Below, in pieces: positions 5,019-23,858 of a stretch of 51,673 nucleotides of DNA. The position numbers were made by a program, and so were the translations under genes. The notes under the pieces are model-generated. The model saw only the letters and a program-made list of their open reading frames with translations. It ran no database searches and was not told the origin of the DNA. Position 1 is the first letter of the stretch; each line of letters opens with the position of its first letter. This stretch comes from Archangiaceae bacterium (lineage in GTDB: Bacteria > Myxococcota > Myxococcia > Myxococcales > Myxococcaceae): NCBI GenBank assembly GCA_016879935.1, contig JAACJQ010000422.1, positions 1 through 51,673 of the forward strand, given 5' to 3'.

Positions 5019-6158
5019 ATGCGCGGCCGTCGCTTCATCGCCACGCTGTTGTTCCTGAGCCTCGGTGCCGGCGCATTGCTGGCGCTGAGGCTTGGTTATG
5101 TCGACCGCCTTCGAGATCGCGTGCAGGGCCGCGCGCCGAAGCTGACGGCCGGCGATTTTCCCGCAGGCGTCACGGCGCCGGTCGACGACGTCGCTTCGAT
5201 TCCCACGCGGCCAGTGCTGGTTGGCGTGGTGCCGCGTGGAACGGTTGCGCCGCTGGTCTGGGCCGCAGGAGACGAAGCCAGGCCGGGGCTCTTCCGCTCG
5301 GCCTACGCCCTCGACGTGAAGGTGGTGCGCTTCGAGTCTGAAGACGCGCTCCGTCGGGCGCTCGTGAAAGGGGCCGACAACGGAGGCGTCGATCTCGCGG
5401 CGCTCTCGGTCTCGACGCTCGGCATGGTGTCGACGCCACTGCGAGATGCCGCGCCACGCACGGTGATGTTGCTGGGCCGCAGCCGCGGGCAAGACGTGCT
5501 GGGCACGCGCAGCGGCTCGCTCGTTCCCGCGCAGCTCGCCGGCAAACGCGTCGCCACCGAGCCGCGGAGCCCCGGGCACTACTTCACGCTCTGGGTGCTC
5601 TCGCGCGCGGGCCTCTCGATGCGTGACGTGACGTGGGTGCCGCTGGAATCGTCGCTTCAGGCAGGTGCGGCGCTGCAAGCGGGGAAGGCCGACGTCGTCG
5701 CAGGGTTCGTGGGAGACGTGCACCCGATGGTTCGAGAGCTGGGCGGCTCGCTGGTGTCGACGACGGCCGACGCGCCGCATCTGCTGGCCACCGTGCTGGT
5801 CGCCCGTGGTGAGTTCGCGGCGCGCTACCCCGACGCCGTGCGCCGCTTGATTCGGGGCTCCCTCGACGCGAGCGCTCAGGTCGTGAAGGCGCCGGAAGAA
5901 GCGGCGCGGGTGCTGGGCACGTTCGCGCCCGAGCTGGGCGACCCGACCGAGGCCATTCTCGCGGCGCCGCCTGCCACCATGCGTGAGAACCTGGCCTTCT
6001 TCGGGCTCTCGGGAGAAGCGCCGGTGACGTACTCCGAGCTGTACCAGTCGGCCGTGTCTCTCTCGCAGAAGCTCACCGGGCCGGGCAGTGCGCCGAGCGC
6101 CGAAGAGACTGCGGACCTCGGAGCGCTGAAGTACGTTTCGGCGACGCAGCGCCCGTGA
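5019..6158 (+). CDS. periplasmic solute-binding-like protein (NrtA/SsuA/TauA superfamily)
   Basis: The product is 379 residues. A Leu/Ala-rich hydrophobic N-terminus (about residues 7-24) acts as signal anchor or signal peptide. The mature part begins with [10 protein letters not shown] and shows the type II periplasmic-binding pattern: [79 protein letters not shown] and [19 protein letters not shown]. Such proteins normally bind small anions or sulfonates for an ABC importer. Here the importer partner is absent; the linked ABC genes are of exporter/extractor (FtsX/MacB) type. The start lies seven bases after the pspA stop, and the end overlaps the next gene by four bases (GTGA). Confidence 0.75.
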
Positions 6159-6976
6159 GCAAACGATCTCCCAACTACCTGAGGGCCGCGCTGTTGATGC
6201 CGGCCAACCTGTTCGCGCTCGCCGCGGGCGGAGTCGCGTCGCTCATCATGGGTGACTGGGTGCCGCTCGCCGCGGCGGGTGGGGCTTCGGCGGCGTACCT
6301 CGCGTTCCTCTCCACCATGCCGTCGTTTCGACGGGCCGTTCGCGCGAACTCCGAAGCGCAGACGTCGGCCGAGGTCGCCAGCCCCGAAGAAGAGCAGGCC
6401 CTGCTGGCCGAGCTCGCCCCGAGCCAACGCGAGCACTACGAGCAGCTTCGCGCCCTCAAGCAACGCATTCTCGACGAGTACGGCAAGCTGCCCGGCGGTG
6501 GCGTGCTGCAGGCCTCGAGCGAGCAGCGCCTCGACACGTTGCTGACATCGTTCCTCCGGCTCGTCACGACGCTCAACAGCTATCGCAAGTTCTTGAATGC
6601 CGCTGACCGTCAGGCCGTCGAGCGCGAACTCCACGAGCTGGTGGCCGAGGTGGAGACGGAGAAGAACGAGCGGCTCAAAGAGGTGAAGAGCCGGCGCGTC
6701 GACATCCTGAAGAAACGGTTGGCCCGCTTCGTCCAGGCCGAAGAGAGCCGGGAAGTGGTGAGCCACCAACTCGCGAGCATCGAGGACCTCTTGCGCCTGA
6801 CCCACGAACAGTCCATCGCCATCAGAGACCCGCAGACCGTGACGCGGCAGCTCGATGCGCTCTCGGCCGAGGTGGCCGCCACCGAAGAGACCGTGCGCGA
6901 CATGGAGTCGTTCATGGTGGTCACCGAAGAGCTCTCGTCGACGCCGGGTTCGCAGGCCGTGAAGGTGCGCTCATGA
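6155..6976 (+). CDS. membrane-anchored coiled-coil protein
   Basis: The product is 273 residues from a GTG that overlaps the previous stop. Two hydrophobic stretches (about 9-31 and 35-51) form a short membrane hairpin. The rest is almost entirely helical and charged, with heptad-like Leu and Glu patterns (ERELHELVAEVETEKNERLK, VDILKKRLARFVQAEESREV). The C-terminus continues as coiled coil to about residue 255. The family is not recognised. Its place between a solute-binding-like protein and a lipoprotein, with overlaps at both ends, suggests a scaffold in the same envelope complex, perhaps contacting PspA through coiled coils. Confidence 0.7.
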   Translation: MSKRSPNYLRAALLMPANLFALAAGGVASLIMGDWVPLAAAGGASAAYLAFLSTMPSFRRAVRANSEAQTSAEVASPEEEQALLAELAPSQREHYEQLRALKQRILDEYGKLPGGGVLQASSEQRLDTLLTSFLRLVTTLNSYRKFLNAADRQAVERELHELVAEVETEKNERLKEVKSRRVDILKKRLARFVQAEESREVVSHQLASIEDLLRLTHEQSIAIRDPQTVTRQLDALSAEVAATEETVRDMESFMVVTEELSSTPGSQAVKVRS

Positions 6977-8553
6977 CGAGGCGGGTGTTGGTGCTGGTGC
7001 TGCTCGCGCTCGCGGGCTGCTCGAAGTGCGGGAAGAAACCCGAAGCGGCGAAGGGTGGCATCGAGCAGGTGCTCCCGCGCGGCGCGATTGCGGTCGTGGT
7101 GGTGCCGTCGCTGAAGGACTCGGGGGCGAAGCTGACGCTGCTCGAGCAGGTGAAGGTCGCGGGCTTCGTGGCGCCGCTTCAGGGGTTCGCGAGCGCGAAG
7201 GCGTTTGCCGACGAGGTCGTTCGCCAGCTCGGCGTCGACGTGCGCAGCCCGGCCGAGATGGAGAAGGTCGGGCTCGATCCCGCGCGCGCGATGGGCGCGG
7301 CCGTGCTGCTGACGGGTGACGTGTACCTGGTGCTGCCGGTGAAAGACGCCTCGGCGCTGAACGCGCGGCTCGAGGGCATCTCGGTGAACCGCTTCGGAGC
7401 GGGCGCAGGCGCCGAGCAGAAGCAGGGTGACATCACGGTGAAGACGTTCTCGACGCAGCAGGGCCAGCCTGCGCGGCTCGGCTATGCCATCGCGAACGGC
7501 TGGGCCTTCGTCGGCCGCGACTCGATGATTCCCAAGCTCGGTCAGGCGGCTTCGCTGGGAGAGACCGATCGCCTCTCGAAGGACGAACAGCTGGCCGAGG
7601 CACTGAAGACGGCGGGCTCGCACGATCTCTACGCCTGGCTCGGCAGTGGGAGCCCCGTGTTGCAGACGACGCCGCTGCTCAACGCGTTCGTGACGGTCTC
7701 GTTGTCGAACACGGCGCTCGAGGCGCGCATCTCGGGGCAGTGGAAGGACAAGCCCGAGCTGCTCGCCGCGCTCACGCCGCAGAGCGCGCAAGACTTCTCG
7801 GGAGTGCTGCCAGCCGACGCCTTCCTCACGGCTCGGTACACCGGTGACGCGAAGGGGCTCGGTGTCATCTCGCGACAGCTCATCGGGCCAAACCTGGCTC
7901 GCGCCTTCGAGGCCGGCGGGTTCGAGCTGAAGACCGAGGTGCTCGACCGCCTGCAGCCGGGGACCGTGTTGTCGCTCTCGCTCGCCGATCGTCCGCCGAT
8001 GGATCGTGGCGTGCCGTCGTTCGACATTCGGCAGACCAACCCGTTCGCGTACGCGCACCTGTCGGGTGTCGCTCCCGTGTCGTCTGCCGAGCTAATCATG
8101 CCGACGCTCACGAAGGTGGCCGAGGTGGCTCCGCGGTTCGGCGCGAAGCTCGAGAAGCAACAGCGCGAGGGGAAAGATCTCTTCTTCACGACGTGGGCGC
8201 AGGGGCAAGGCGTGCACTTCGCGCCGAAGGGTTCGCTCGTGGCGTTTGCTTCTCCGGTGCAGCGGCTCGATGCGGTGCTGGCGTCGGAGGCGGCTCCGAA
8301 GCCTGCGGCTGCCACGAGCGATGCGTTCACGATGTCGGTCGATTTCACGAAGCTCGCCAACTCGGTGCGTGGGTTGCCCGAGAGCGCGTGGGGCCTGGGT
8401 GGGTTCGCGCTCAAGCCGACGACCGTGCGCTGGCTCGATGCGACCGACGACTTGAAGGGCCTCACCGTCACCGCTGGCGCGAAGGACGGCAAAGTGCTGA
8501 CGACGGTGAAGTTGTCGCTCGCGATCGCCGCGCCCGCTCCGAAGGTGCAGTGA
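6973..8553 (+). CDS. large lipoprotein of unknown function
   Basis: The product is 526 residues with a textbook lipoprotein signal, MTRRVLVLVLLALAGC, followed by SKCGKK, so a second Cys sits three residues after the lipidated one. The mature part is about 500 residues without recognised catalytic motifs. It alternates hydrophobic strands and helices (GAIAVVVVPSLKDSGAKL, VYLVLPVKDASALNARLEG, FVGRDSMIPKLGQAA), resembling DUF3352-like secreted proteins, but this is only an impression. It overlaps the preceding gene through ATGA and is followed after three bases by an ABC ATPase, so it is probably the accessory envelope component of that transporter. Confidence 0.72.
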   Translation: MTRRVLVLVLLALAGCSKCGKKPEAAKGGIEQVLPRGAIAVVVVPSLKDSGAKLTLLEQVKVAGFVAPLQGFASAKAFADEVVRQLGVDVRSPAEMEKVGLDPARAMGAAVLLTGDVYLVLPVKDASALNARLEGISVNRFGAGAGAEQKQGDITVKTFSTQQGQPARLGYAIANGWAFVGRDSMIPKLGQAASLGETDRLSKDEQLAEALKTAGSHDLYAWLGSGSPVLQTTPLLNAFVTVSLSNTALEARISGQWKDKPELLAALTPQSAQDFSGVLPADAFLTARYTGDAKGLGVISRQLIGPNLARAFEAGGFELKTEVLDRLQPGTVLSLSLADRPPMDRGVPSFDIRQTNPFAYAHLSGVAPVSSAELIMPTLTKVAEVAPRFGAKLEKQQREGKDLFFTTWAQGQGVHFAPKGSLVAFASPVQRLDAVLASEAAPKPAAATSDAFTMSVDFTKLANSVRGLPESAWGLGGFALKPTTVRWLDATDDLKGLTVTAGAKDGKVLTTVKLSLAIAAPAPKVQ

Positions 8554-8556
8554 GCC

Positions 8557-9219
8557 GTGATCGAAGCGAAGGACATCAGCCGTGAGTACGACGACGGCGC
8601 GAAGGGGCGGCTCAAGGTGCTCGACGGCGTGTCGCTGTCGGTGGCGCAGGGCGAGTTCGTCGCGATCGTCGGGCGCTCGGGCAGCGGAAAGTCGACGCTC
8701 CTTCACGTGCTGGGCGGGCTCGACACCGACTTTCGCGGGCAGGTGACGGTCGCAGGCACGCGGCTCGATGGACTGCCCGATGCCGCGCTCAGCCGGTTTC
8801 GCAACGAGACGGTGGGCTTCGTCTTTCAGTCGTTTCACCTGATGTCGGGCGTGTCGGCGCTCGAGAACGTGCTGTTGCCTGCGCGGTTCTCGGCGACGCC
8901 GGTGACGGATCTCGAGGGGCGCGCAAAGGCGGCGCTCGATCGCGTCGGGTTGACGAGTCATGCCGCGCGCAATCCGGGCCAGCTCTCGGGTGGTGAACGG
9001 CAGCGGGTCGCCATCGCGCGCGCATTGTTCTCGTCTCCGAAGGTGCTGCTGTGTGACGAGCCGACGGGAAATCTCGACGCCGAGACGGCCGACGGCGTGG
9101 TCGCGTTGTTCAAGCAGCTCAACGCCTCTGGGCTCACCATCGTCGCGGTCACACACGAGGACCGGCTTCGTGGTGCCGCGAGCCGGGTGCTGACGCTGTC
9201 GAAGGGCGTGCTGTCATGA
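8557..9219 (+). CDS. ABC transporter ATPase, LolD/MacB type
   Basis: The product is 220 residues with a GTG start and the complete motif set: Walker [11 protein letters not shown]-loop FVFQSFHLM, signature LSGGERQR, Walker [13 protein letters not shown] and switch His in VTHED. The [11 protein letters not shown] segment and the short length match the LolD/FtsE/MacB-ATPase branch that pairs with FtsX-fold permeases. These systems extract lipoproteins or transmit mechanical force rather than pump through a channel. The permease partner is two genes downstream, with a repeat ORF inserted between; the end of this gene overlaps that ORF by four bases (ATGA). Confidence 0.92.
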
Positions 9220-9473
9220 CCGCGGCGTCCCACGACGGCGCTGCGTTCCACGACGGCGCTGCGCTCCACGACGACGCTGGGCTCCACGACGGCGCTGCGC
9301 TCCACGACGGCGCTGCGTTTCACGACGGCGCTGCGTTTCACGACGGCGTTGCGTTCCACGACGGCGCTGCGTTCCACGGCGGCGCTGCGTTCCACGACGG
9401 CGCTGCGCTCCACGACGGCGCTGTCGCGCGCGCGGCGAGCCGGTGGATGCCTGCTTCGGCGGTGTGCCCATGA
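9216..9473 (+). CDS. 85-residue His-Asp-Gly hexapeptide-repeat protein coupled to ABC genes
   Basis: The ORF starts within the ATGA that ends the ATPase gene and stops within the ATGA that starts the permease gene, so ribosomes could re-initiate across all three. After MTAAS it consists of eleven hexapeptide units of consensus H-D-G-A-A-(F/L). Variants include [12 protein letters not shown] and HGGAAF, and the eleventh unit reads HDGAVA. A short tail follows: [14 protein letters not shown]. There is no signal peptide or membrane segment. A regular His every six residues with a neighbouring Asp suggests metal binding, but this is inference. The alternative is that the ORF is only a minisatellite that has kept frame; the exact double ATGA overlap argues for translation. 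Confidence 0.55.
9231..9428 (+). repeat. 18-bp tandem repeat (minisatellite), 11 units
   Basis: Eleven head-to-tail 18-mers of consensus CACGACGGCGCTGCGTTC lie entirely within the small ORF between the ABC ATPase and permease genes. Units differ at the last codon (TTC, TTT or CTC) and by single changes to GAC for GGC, GGG for GCG, GTT for GCT and GGC for GAC; the eleventh ends GTCGCG. Because the period is a multiple of three, several other frames are also open across the array, which explains apparent repeat ORFs on both strands. Confidence 0.95.
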
Positions 9474-10747
9474 GCGGCTCGCTCTGGCCGCTGGTGAAGC
9501 TGTCGCTCTCGCGCGATCGCCGCAGCGCGATCTCGTCGACCTTCGGCCTCGCCATCGGTGTCGCCTCGCTCGTCTTCTTCGTCTCACTCGGCCTCGGTGT
9601 CGGGCGCATCGTTCGCGAGAAGGTCTTCCCCGTCGACACCAGCCTCGTCGAGGTCGTGCCGGCGCAGCTCTCGTTCGGCCTGCTCGGAGGCGGCACGCTG
9701 GACGAGCCCACGGTCGCGCGACTCGAAGCGCTGCCCGGTGTGAAGCGCGCGTACAAGAAGATGAACGTGCGGGCTCCGGCGGTCACCATCTACCGCGGAG
9801 ACTTCTTCGGCCGCCCGCTGCACATGGGCCTCGAGATTCTCGCCGTCGGCGTCGAGCCCGACTTCATCAAGAGCGATCTCATGCTCGGAGACTTCGCCGA
9901 CCCGGGCCCGGACAAGCCGATTCCCGCCATCGCGTCGACGCGGCTGCTCGAGATCTACAACAAGAGCTTCGCGCCCCAGCGCTCGTTGCCGCAGCTCTCG
10001 GGCCAGATGCTCGCGGGCTTTATCTTCCCGGTCGACTTCAACCGCTCGTTCGTCACCAGCACGAACCCGAACGAATCGGCGATTCCTTCGCAGGCCCAGC
10101 TCGTCGGAGTCTCCGACCGCGCGATGCTCGCGGGCATCACCATTCCCCTCGACGCCGCGCGCCGGCTCAACGCCGCCGCCAACAAAGACGCGAAGACCTT
10201 CACGGCCGTCACGCTCGCGGCCACCGACCCCTCGCAGGTGCCGCAGCTCGTCGCTGCCGTGAAGGCCATGGGCCTGCGCGTCGACGATCAGGATCGCCGC
10301 ATGGCCGAGAACGCCGGAGCCGCCGTGGCCATCAGCACCTCGAGCCTCGCGCTGCTGTCGGTGCTCATCTGCCTGCTGGCTGCCTTCAACATCGCCCACG
10401 CCTTCTCGGCGTCGGTGCGGGCGAGAGAGAAGGAGCTCGGCGTGATGCGCGCCGTCGGAGCGAGCCGCTCGGCGCTCTTCCGCCTCGTGCTCGTCGAGGC
10501 CCTGCTCCTCGGCCTGCTCGGTGGCGTCATCGGAACCGCCCTGGCCCTCCTCGCGGGCTATGGTCTCGACGTGGCAGCCGTGCGTTTCGTGCCCGAGTTT
10601 CCTTTCAAGCCCGAGACCTGGTTCGAGCGGCCGCTGTGGCTGATGGGCGGAGGCGTGGTGCTGGGGGTGCTGGCCGCCGTCGCCGGTGCCTTCCTGCCTG
10701 CACGCCACGCCTCACGCACCGCTCCCGTTCGGGTGCTGGCCGGCTGA
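9470..10747 (+). CDS. ABC transporter permease, FtsX/MacB fold
   Basis: The product is 425 residues. The topology is that of the MacB/LolE family: one N-terminal helix (about 22-45, [21 protein letters not shown]), a large periplasmic domain, and three C-terminal helices ([59 protein letters not shown]). The cytoplasmic segment [20 protein letters not shown] between the second and third helices is the typical ATPase-coupling region, and the C-terminus [14 protein letters not shown] matches the family ending. The start in the ATGA overlap is preferred over an in-frame ATG at 9443. It is the last gene of the operon. Confidence 0.88.
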
Positions 10748-21236: not shown

Positions 21237-23858
21237 GTGATTCGCAAGACCATCGCCTTCGCCGCTCTCGTGTTGTCCGCCTGTCCACCTCCGGTCACCG
21301 ATGAGTGTGGAACGGGGTTGCCCGCGTGTGGTTCGGGGCTCACGTGCGTCGCGGGGAAGTGCACGGCCGCTGGAGGTGGCTCTGCTGGAGGCCAGGTGAC
21401 GGCCGGTGGGAGCGCCGGCGGTCAGGTCACGGCGGGTGGTTCAGCGGGAGGCATGACTGCGGGTGGCACGACCGCGGGTGGTTCGGCCGGTGGCATGACG
21501 GCGGGCGGCATGGCGGCAGGTGGCTCGGCAGGTGGAATGTCGGCTCCGCTCTGTGACGGTGGCTGCGAGACCTGGGCCGTGTGCAACGGCGCGATCGTCG
21601 GGGGCCGCTGCGAGAACGGCGTTCTGTCGGTCGTGGAGCCCGTCGAAGGCGGCTCGTACGACGCAGGTGCGCCGCTGCCGCTGCTCGCGTCGCTGGTGTT
21701 GCCTGATGGCGGGGCGTGGCCGACGGTGCTGCGCATTCCTGCCACCACGAGCTGGGGGCAGACGGCGCAGGTGCTCAGCGGCACTGCCACCACCATCACT
21801 GGCGCTGCAACTGCGGGTGCCGGCCTCGTCAGCGTCGGGTGGGACGGCGGGCCGTCGGTGCAGCGCAACCTCTCGTTCGTCTCGTGCACGGCGACGTGTG
21901 AGGGCTTCCAGCGTTGTGTCAGCACCACCGCCGGAGGGTTCTGCGCGACCTTGCCGCTGACCGTCAGCATCACCACGCCTGCGGCCGACGGCACCACGAC
22001 GAACGACGCCGGGCTCCAGGTGCAGGTCACCATCACGTCTGCCGATGGCGGCATGCCTTCGTCGGTGCCGGTCGCCGGCCCCGGCATGGCGGTGATCGCC
22101 TCGCGCGACACGGCCACCTCGAGCACGTACACGGCGAGCCTCACGCTTGCGACGCCCGACGGCACGAAGACGATCGTCGCCGGCTGGGACGCGGGCGTTG
22201 GCTTCTCGGCGCAGCGCTCGCTCATCTTCGATTCGACGCCTCCGACGGTGACGGTGGTGGTTCAGCCTCCGACGCGCGCTGCGCACGAGCAGGACCCGAC
22301 GGCGCCGAACCTGTGGAAGAAGGACGAGTCGGCGCTGGTCGCCGTGACGGTGACCGACGCGACCTCGCCCGTGCAGCCCGTGACGCCCGCGATGGTGATG
22401 GCGCCCGGTGGTTCGACGGCGATTGCCGCGCCCGGCGCGTGCACGAGCTGCACGCCCGCGACTGGCAATGCCCAGACCGGGTGCACCTGCTTCCGCGTTC
22501 CCCTCGAGCGCGCGACCATCGCTGGAGCGCGTGGCCCCGTGACGGTGGGCGTCGTGGGCGCCCTCGATGGCCCCGGGAACGCCGGCAACGGCACCAGCCC
22601 GAGCTTCACGGTGACCCGCTTCAAGTGGGCTCGGACCTTCCCCGGAGCCGTCGCACGGCCGGTCGCGGTCGGTGATGGCGGCGTCGTGTTCGCTGCCGCG
22701 TCGGACATGTCGAACGGGCGCCTCACGGCGTTGACCTCCGACGGCACCGTGTTGTGGGCGGTGAGCGACGCTGGCGTGGTGACGACGGGCCCCGCAGTCG
22801 GCGCCTCGGTGTGGGTTGGCACGAAGAGCGGCGCCGACGTCGCGATGTCGCCGTTCTCGCTGGCGGGTGCTCCCCAGGCGCAGCGCGCCGTCTTCAGCGC
22901 AGGCAACGGCTTCGAGGGCGACTTCGCGCTCACGCCCGCGATTCAGTCGGGCATGACGTACGAGACTCCGATCGCCATGCGTGAAGGCTCCAACAACCTC
23001 ATCGCCTGCGGGCCGGCCACGGTGGGTCGCGCGACCTCGATGGCGAGCGGTACCCCGGTCGTCGTGGCCCGCACGGGAATGACTGGCGGCGTCGAGGTCT
23101 TCATCAACCGCGGCGGTACGAGCGACCTCGCGAAGTACACCTACAACAACGCGTGGCTCGGCAACGGCACCAACACGCTCTCGGCGACGAGCATCTACGG
23201 CGTCGTCAGCCTGGCGACCGGCCCGACCTTCTTGAGCGGCAGCGGCGGCGCCATGAACGACGGCATGGTGATGCTCACGTTGAACGCGGTCGCGGCCGAT
23301 CTCACGAGCGTGTCGCCCTCGAAGGCGCCCACCGCTTCGCCGACGACCGAAGCGCCATATGGCCCCAGCGCGGTCGGCGCCGGCTTCCTCTACGCCGGCA
23401 ACGCGGGTGGAGCGCTTCGACGCTTCGCGATCGGCAGCACGAACCTGCTCACCGGCATGCGCGACGAGGTGACGGGCCTTGGCGATCTCTCGAAGTCGAC
23501 GCCGGTGCTCGGCAAGGGCGGCCTCGTCTATGCCGTCAACGGCGCGGGCAACGTGAAGGCCGTGCAGTTCTCGAGCTCGGTGAACAGCGTGCTCTGGAGC
23601 GCGAACGACTTCGTCTCGGCGGCCGACGGCATCGGCCAGGCCGCGCTCGACGTGGTGCGTGACGCGACCGGCGCTGCGCAGTGCTCGCGCGGGCTGGGCG
23701 TGTTGTACGTGCCGACGGTTGCCGCTGGAGTGGCGACGGTGACGGCGGTGATCGTCGACTCGCCCGGCCTCGACCCGCTCGCGCCGTGGCCGAAGTACCA
23801 GCGTGACAACCGCAACTCGGGCTTCGCTGACTCCACCTCGCCAGCTGCCTGCCCGTGA
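21237..23858 (+). CDS. Gly-linker lipoprotein with beta-propeller-like C-terminal part
   Basis: The product is 873 residues with a GTG start. The signal MIRKTIAFAALVLSAC carries a lipobox, and a short Cys-rich knot follows (DECGTGLPACGSGLTCVAGKC). A 55-residue Gly/Ala/Ser linker comes next, then a second Cys cluster (LCDGGCETWAVCNGAIVGGRC) and Ig-like repeats ending in phrases such as VSVGWDGG and IVAGWDAG. The C-terminal half has PQQ/propeller-like blades with VVFAAASDMSNGRLTALTSD and the ending PWPKYQRDNRNSGFA, typical of secreted PQQ-like propellers. It is probably displayed at the outer membrane; ligand and role are unknown. Confidence 0.78.
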   Translation: MIRKTIAFAALVLSACPPPVTDECGTGLPACGSGLTCVAGKCTAAGGGSAGGQVTAGGSAGGQVTAGGSAGGMTAGGTTAGGSAGGMTAGGMAAGGSAGGMSAPLCDGGCETWAVCNGAIVGGRCENGVLSVVEPVEGGSYDAGAPLPLLASLVLPDGGAWPTVLRIPATTSWGQTAQVLSGTATTITGAATAGAGLVSVGWDGGPSVQRNLSFVSCTATCEGFQRCVSTTAGGFCATLPLTVSITTPAADGTTTNDAGLQVQVTITSADGGMPSSVPVAGPGMAVIASRDTATSSTYTASLTLATPDGTKTIVAGWDAGVGFSAQRSLIFDSTPPTVTVVVQPPTRAAHEQDPTAPNLWKKDESALVAVTVTDATSPVQPVTPAMVMAPGGSTAIAAPGACTSCTPATGNAQTGCTCFRVPLERATIAGARGPVTVGVVGALDGPGNAGNGTSPSFTVTRFKWARTFPGAVARPVAVGDGGVVFAAASDMSNGRLTALTSDGTVLWAVSDAGVVTTGPAVGASVWVGTKSGADVAMSPFSLAGAPQAQRAVFSAGNGFEGDFALTPAIQSGMTYETPIAMREGSNNLIACGPATVGRATSMASGTPVVVARTGMTGGVEVFINRGGTSDLAKYTYNNAWLGNGTNTLSATSIYGVVSLATGPTFLSGSGGAMNDGMVMLTLNAVAADLTSVSPSKAPTASPTTEAPYGPSAVGAGFLYAGNAGGALRRFAIGSTNLLTGMRDEVTGLGDLSKSTPVLGKGGLVYAVNGAGNVKAVQFSSSVNSVLWSANDFVSAADGIGQAALDVVRDATGAAQCSRGLGVLYVPTVAAGVATVTAVIVDSPGLDPLAPWPKYQRDNRNSGFADSTSPAACP
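21372..21536 (+). repeat. coding Gly-rich linker repeat
   Basis: Codons 46-100 of the lipoprotein consist of near-repeats of GGSAGG joined by QVTA, MTA, TTA or MAA. At DNA level the first units (GGTGGCTCTGCTGGAGGC and relatives) differ at synonymous sites, so the array is older than the 18-bp repeat in the ABC operon. It probably serves as a flexible stalk above the lipid anchor. Confidence 0.8.

Follow-up and report, generated by a model that had tools for sequence, protein, structure and literature searches.

A minisatellite micro-ORF as a probable translational bridge between the ATPase and permease genes of a myxobacterial ABC transporter

An 18-bp minisatellite wedged between an ABC ATPase gene and its permease gene is probably a dispensable coding bridge by which the two genes keep their termination-reinitiation coupling. 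Comparison with relatives shows the array to be an insertion specific to this lineage, placed in the conserved RTGA overlap (4 bp) of this ABC ATPase and permease. We propose that the array would be tolerated because its micro-ORF starts in the terminal ATGA of the ATPase gene and stops in the initial ATGA of the permease gene. The selected feature seems to be translational continuity rather than the repeat peptide, and the content of the insertion looks neutral. The stretch analysed, referred to here as the window, has 51,673 nucleotides and is one entire contig of a draft genome of 9.5 Mb in 445 contigs. The features of the locus are as follows.

5019-6158, + strand: upstream chain gene, NMT1/SsuA-like (ORF coordinates, family searches)
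6155-6976, + strand: upstream chain gene (ORF coordinates, family searches)
6973-8553, + strand: upstream chain gene (ORF coordinates, family searches)
8557-9219, + strand: ABC ATPase gene, 220 aa, GTG start (Pfam ABC_tran, 2.7e-33)
9202-9206, + strand: AAGGG, Shine-Dalgarno-like (SD-like) sequence ahead of the micro-ORF start (sequence, duplex energies)
9216-9219, + strand: ATGA in which the ATPase stop and the micro-ORF start overlap; the permease start (RTGA) of the relatives sits here
9216-9473, + strand: wedged micro-ORF, 85 codons (open reading frame list, translation, congener comparison)
9221-9423, + strand: 18-bp minisatellite encoding H-D-G-A-A-(F/L) (TRF, unit list)
9424-9469, + strand: non-repeat 3′ part of the insertion, weakly resembling the ATPase 3′ end, with GCGAGCCGG common to both
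9470-9473, + strand: ATGA in which the micro-ORF stop and the permease start overlap
9470-10747, + strand: permease gene, FtsX/MacB-PCD family, 425 aa (Pfam FtsX, 5.3e-19; MacB_PCD, 2.7e-6)

The three upstream genes follow one another with successive -4 overlaps, and a 3-nt gap separates the last of them from the ATPase gene. The transporter resembles those of the LolCDE, MacB and FtsEX types in having an ATPase and an FtsX-domain permease, adjacent or fused. It differs from them in its scores and stands as an unassigned branch, as neither the ATPase nor the permease reaches the NCBIfam cut-offs for LolD, LolC/E, MacB or FtsX. The ATPase is nearest to the LolD/MacB/FtsE-type ATPases, with LolD as its top NCBIfam match, under the cut-off. 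Assignment to LolCDE fails at 230.9 against a cut-off of 307.75 for LolD and at 47.4 against 362.45 for LolC/E.

The array was scored by TRF at period 18, 11.3 copies, 91% matches and a score of 322, making it the top TRF array of the window. The first-pass annotation, made from the letters alone, had described this array, the ORF around it and an ATGA at each end, and the TRF output and the ORF coordinates bear the description out. ORFs run through the array on both strands. A stop-free 18-bp repeat is open in every frame, and the openness of the ORF at 9216-9473 is therefore by itself no evidence of a gene. The sole informative feature is the frame relation of the insertion (254 = 2 mod 3), expected by chance about once in three.

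Relatives in which the two genes are directly joined, with no array, had been named by the first-pass annotation as the sign of a neutral insertion, and such relatives were found. The four nearest congeners (G001, G003, G005 and G006), whose permeases are 86-89% identical to that of the window, all join the ATPase and permease genes by a 4-bp GTGA overlap. Relative to these congeners the insertion is 254 bp long and spans one RTGA to the next. Since the genes join without the array in 4/4 nearest congeners and at about 118 of 126 junctions, the array is an insertion and not a conserved peptide or linker. A site equivalent to the AAGGG of the window stands ahead of the permease start in the congeners; this SD-like purine stretch in the end of the ATPase gene would serve the permease there.

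The ATPase-permease junction was read in the window and in its relatives within the order, 126 genomes in all; the relatives are Myxococcaceae/Myxococcales metagenome assemblies, in which many short loci show the first 35-60 permease codons only and are classified by N-terminal sequence. An RTGA 4-bp overlap is found at 116 of the 126 junctions and TGATG at two. If a coupled gene chain is recognised by stop/start overlaps of 4 or 1 nt, there are thus 118 direct overlaps among the 126 junctions, and two -4 overlaps in the window. Counted among the 116 are G002, which has 36 bp extra with the frame kept as an N-terminal extension, and G036, whose ATPase is lengthened by a palindromic element (a C-terminal extension), the RTGA overlap coming after it. 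In two genomes, G099 (L142) and G071 (L160), ATPase and permease form a single fused ORF, and these fusions have apparently arisen within the order. The fusion linker of G071 reads through a CCCCTCACCCCGG-like element, the permease there being read from its first part only.

A separate insert is present at six of the 126 junctions, and all six are bridged by an ORF running from the RTGA of the ATPase to the start of the permease. The bridge ORF has 85 codons in the window, 88 in G004, 27 in G056, 40 in G065 (from another family), 4 in G088 and 18 in G043. At its far end there is a -4 overlap in the first five of these, and TAG followed directly by GTG in G043. No long untranslated gap was found at the 126 junctions; even if its micro-ORF is disregarded, G088 would have a distance of just 7-8 nt. 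The bridge peptides and sequences of the different genomes are mutually unrelated. In the 263-bp insert of G004 (L022/L051) the ATPase 3′ end is repeated in tandem; a copy that is 38/44 identical ends exactly at GTGA, and because the insert contains such a copy it arose by tandem duplication. Palindromic elements of the CCCCTCACCCCGGCCCTC...GGGGAGAGGG type stand at the ATPase-permease junction in L027, L028 and L029 (genus g16) and in L160 (G071), where they have been taken up into a micro-ORF, an extension of the ATPase or the linker of a fusion.

As a comparison set, the same loci were read mechanically at the junction preceding the ATPase, giving 110 overlaps and ten gaps. Four of the ten gaps are bridged by double-overlap micro-ORFs of 6, 7, 32 and 12 codons (G005, G001, G056 and G050; loci L019, L020, L028 and L030), with -4 overlaps at both micro-ORF ends, and another four keep the frame and have an RTGA start. 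Since the upstream junction is bridged likewise in four genomes, stop-start bridging is not limited to one junction.

Reporter work in E. coli indicates how such a geometry would act. Reinitiation requires overlaps or very short distances (PMC10666635); a 38-nt gap removes 80-90% of it or all of it, and the final 15 nt of upstream coding sequence are enough for it (Huber et al. 2023, PMC10666635). Given that requirement, an untranslated insert of 250 nt would uncouple the permease from the ATPase. We suggest that ribosomes finishing the ATPase would reinitiate immediately on the micro-ORF at the ATGA at 9216-9219, translate it, and then reinitiate on the permease at the ATGA at 9470-9473. ATPase-permease coupling could in this way outlast the 250-bp insertion, by means of an ORF that overlaps at both ends. 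We infer both the translation and reinitiation across the micro-ORF and the purging, by selection, of insertions that leave a gap. The first-pass annotation had raised the possibility that the array tunes permease translation. The part of this that stands is a bearing on that translation, as coupling would be kept and a stop-start hand-over is found at every insert of this junction in the order.

The alternative that survives best, although we judge it unlikely, is a neutral insertion: the array would be junk, the permease would initiate alone from an SD-like site at 9470 or from the GTG at 9443, and the double overlap would follow automatically from a duplicated ATGA and a one-in-three frame. 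The open reading of the array in every frame, the neutral unit changes and the clear same-site duplication in G004 all agree with this. The permease ATG is also preceded by its own SD-like stretch, with a predicted duplex of -8.8 kcal/mol versus -9.0 for the micro-ORF start, and independent initiation is therefore possible. If an insertion arises by duplication of an RTGA-bearing segment, a second RTGA comes with it automatically, which leaves the frame (1 in 3) and the openness as the only informative features. Set against a neutral insertion are the double-overlap geometry at five of the six inserted junctions, with adjacency at the remaining one, the lack of a long gap throughout the 126 junctions, and the recurrence of the bridging geometry upstream of the ATPase. 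The role of chance was estimated with a null in which the insert interiors were shuffled, dinucleotides being kept, and the length was randomised by 0-2 bases. The chance that an ORF from the RTGA ends no more than 4 nt away from the permease start is 0.15 for the window, 0.15 for G004, 0.06 for G043, 0.32 for G056 and 0.24 for G065. In this shuffle simulation the product for the five coupled stops is 1.1e-4, and it rises to 0.005 for six cases, G002 included, if an in-frame extension is also counted as a success; the continuity criterion was picked after the cases had been seen and the events are few (5-6), which makes both figures indicative.

Far less probable than a neutral insertion is a device in which changes in unit number tune or phase-vary the output of the permease with the frame kept. 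A unit of 18 bp is six codons and preserves the frame, and the near identity of the units would allow slippage. However, a kept frame gives no on/off switch, no second genome of the species was found in which unit number could be compared, and RNA folding of the insertion region is not unusual (z -1.45).

Less probable again is a functional peptide, in which the HDGAA(F/L) repeat protein would serve the transporter as an accessory or metal-responsive component, either subunit or linker, a role akin to the metal-responsive linker or coupling peptide of the first-pass annotation. Such a role is suggested by the regular, in-frame, His/Asp-rich repeat and by its position between two subunits of one transporter. 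It is opposed by the lack of the peptide in all congeners, by the lack of any match in Pfam or NCBIfam, and by the unrelated peptides that relatives carry, through independent insertions, at the same place. A dN/dS-type check among the units, as had been recommended, gave the idea no help. Six positions vary among the ten full units, and one of the six changes is synonymous in the ORF frame versus 1.7 expected, no excess over chance; neither of the other two frames has so few synonymous changes. No purifying selection on the units is seen in these six changes. The unit variation and the absence in relatives would argue against a selected peptide, six changes being few, and the micro-ORF peptide is probably a by-product. 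The least probable reading is an internal permease promoter within the insertion, for which the MIRU-bearing senX3-regX3 region of M. tuberculosis is a precedent (PMC4213456) and against which the scan found neither promoter nor terminator, with no sigma-70-like site in 9100-9600 (other promoter types lying outside the scan).

The coding bridge that we favour is functionally like the MIRUs (mycobacterial interspersed repetitive units), which are repeats, apparently mobile, that enter at start codons, with an inner ORF coupled at -4 spacing (PMC12548453) and an insertion geometry that minimises the effect on the host gene (2025 review, PMC12548453). The MIRUs of senX3-regX3 have tandem units of 53-77 bp (PMC4213456). 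The window likewise has a repetitive start-codon insertion in an operon, tandem copies, and an internal ORF coupled at -4 spacing to the downstream gene. Nevertheless, the array is not a MIRU, since its unit is 18 bp rather than 53-77 bp (size compared, from PMC4213456) and it lies at one genomic site, whereas MIRUs are dispersed at many loci. A further difference is that the bridges of the relatives share no sequence relationship; one is a duplicated ATPase 3′ end. What goes beyond the MIRU case, as we read these junctions, is convergence: inserts of unrelated sequence have come to share one geometry at a single junction.

Termination-reinitiation coupling at ATGA is likewise associated with -4 overlaps between the genes of one complex (PMC10666635, PMC6728339); the window differs in having two overlaps in series, with a non-homologous micro-ORF between real genes. 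Regulatory minigenes also present a short ORF within an operon. In axe-txe, such an ORF affects the translation of the next gene, and frame and distance matter (PMC8708949). However, axe-txe is a two-codon regulatory element, whereas the window ORF has 85 codons.

It is tempting to propose a no-gap rule for coupled operons of the Myxococcales, by which inserts of whatever origin at a coupled junction would survive only by becoming a micro-ORF from stop to start, by extending a gene in frame or by fusing the two genes. We put this forward tentatively, as a generalisation falling slightly short of an even balance. If it is true, new small ORFs would arise recurrently from such bridges in a MIRU-like but element-independent way, a minisatellite being one substrate. 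The window junction offers a natural experiment that asks whether unbroken ribosome traffic between subunit genes is necessary in bacteria. The convergence of a minisatellite, a duplicated gene end and palindromic elements on stop-start geometry at one junction adds an evolutionary argument, beyond reporters, for selected coupling. It also marks a route from neutral repeats to small ORFs that are probably translated, which annotators and small-protein surveys should not read as functional peptides.

The origin of the array was sought in its own genome and in the flanking genes. By pattern, no repeat of the array DNA was found elsewhere in its own genome, barring two single matches with three mismatches each. 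A dispersed-element origin was rejected, there being no second copy in the genome, and the weak BLAST matches L002-L004 and L095 are unrelated repeats; L003 is of TTDAGS type and L095 is an SGGGAA linker, both within coding sequence. The 18-bp unit gave no significant match to the ATPase 3′ end. The 3′ flank of the insertion resembles that end at p ~0.02-0.06 in 38- and 45-nt comparisons and 0.3-0.5 over 30 nt, a weak likeness that is suggestive only as a signal of origin. The site is empty in the congeners, and CATGA is present at each end of the insertion. The motif is short and is also expected from tandem duplication, and its presence at both ends would fit either a duplication or a target-site duplication. 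A literature search on minisatellites in myxobacteria gave nothing relevant. Other tandem arrays were seen in the same genome: a very long 18-bp array of ~74 copies lies in L004 at 967-2312 (contig C336), and a second array of the window, with a 42-bp/15-bp period (GCGGGTGGCATGACG), is at 21429-21544.
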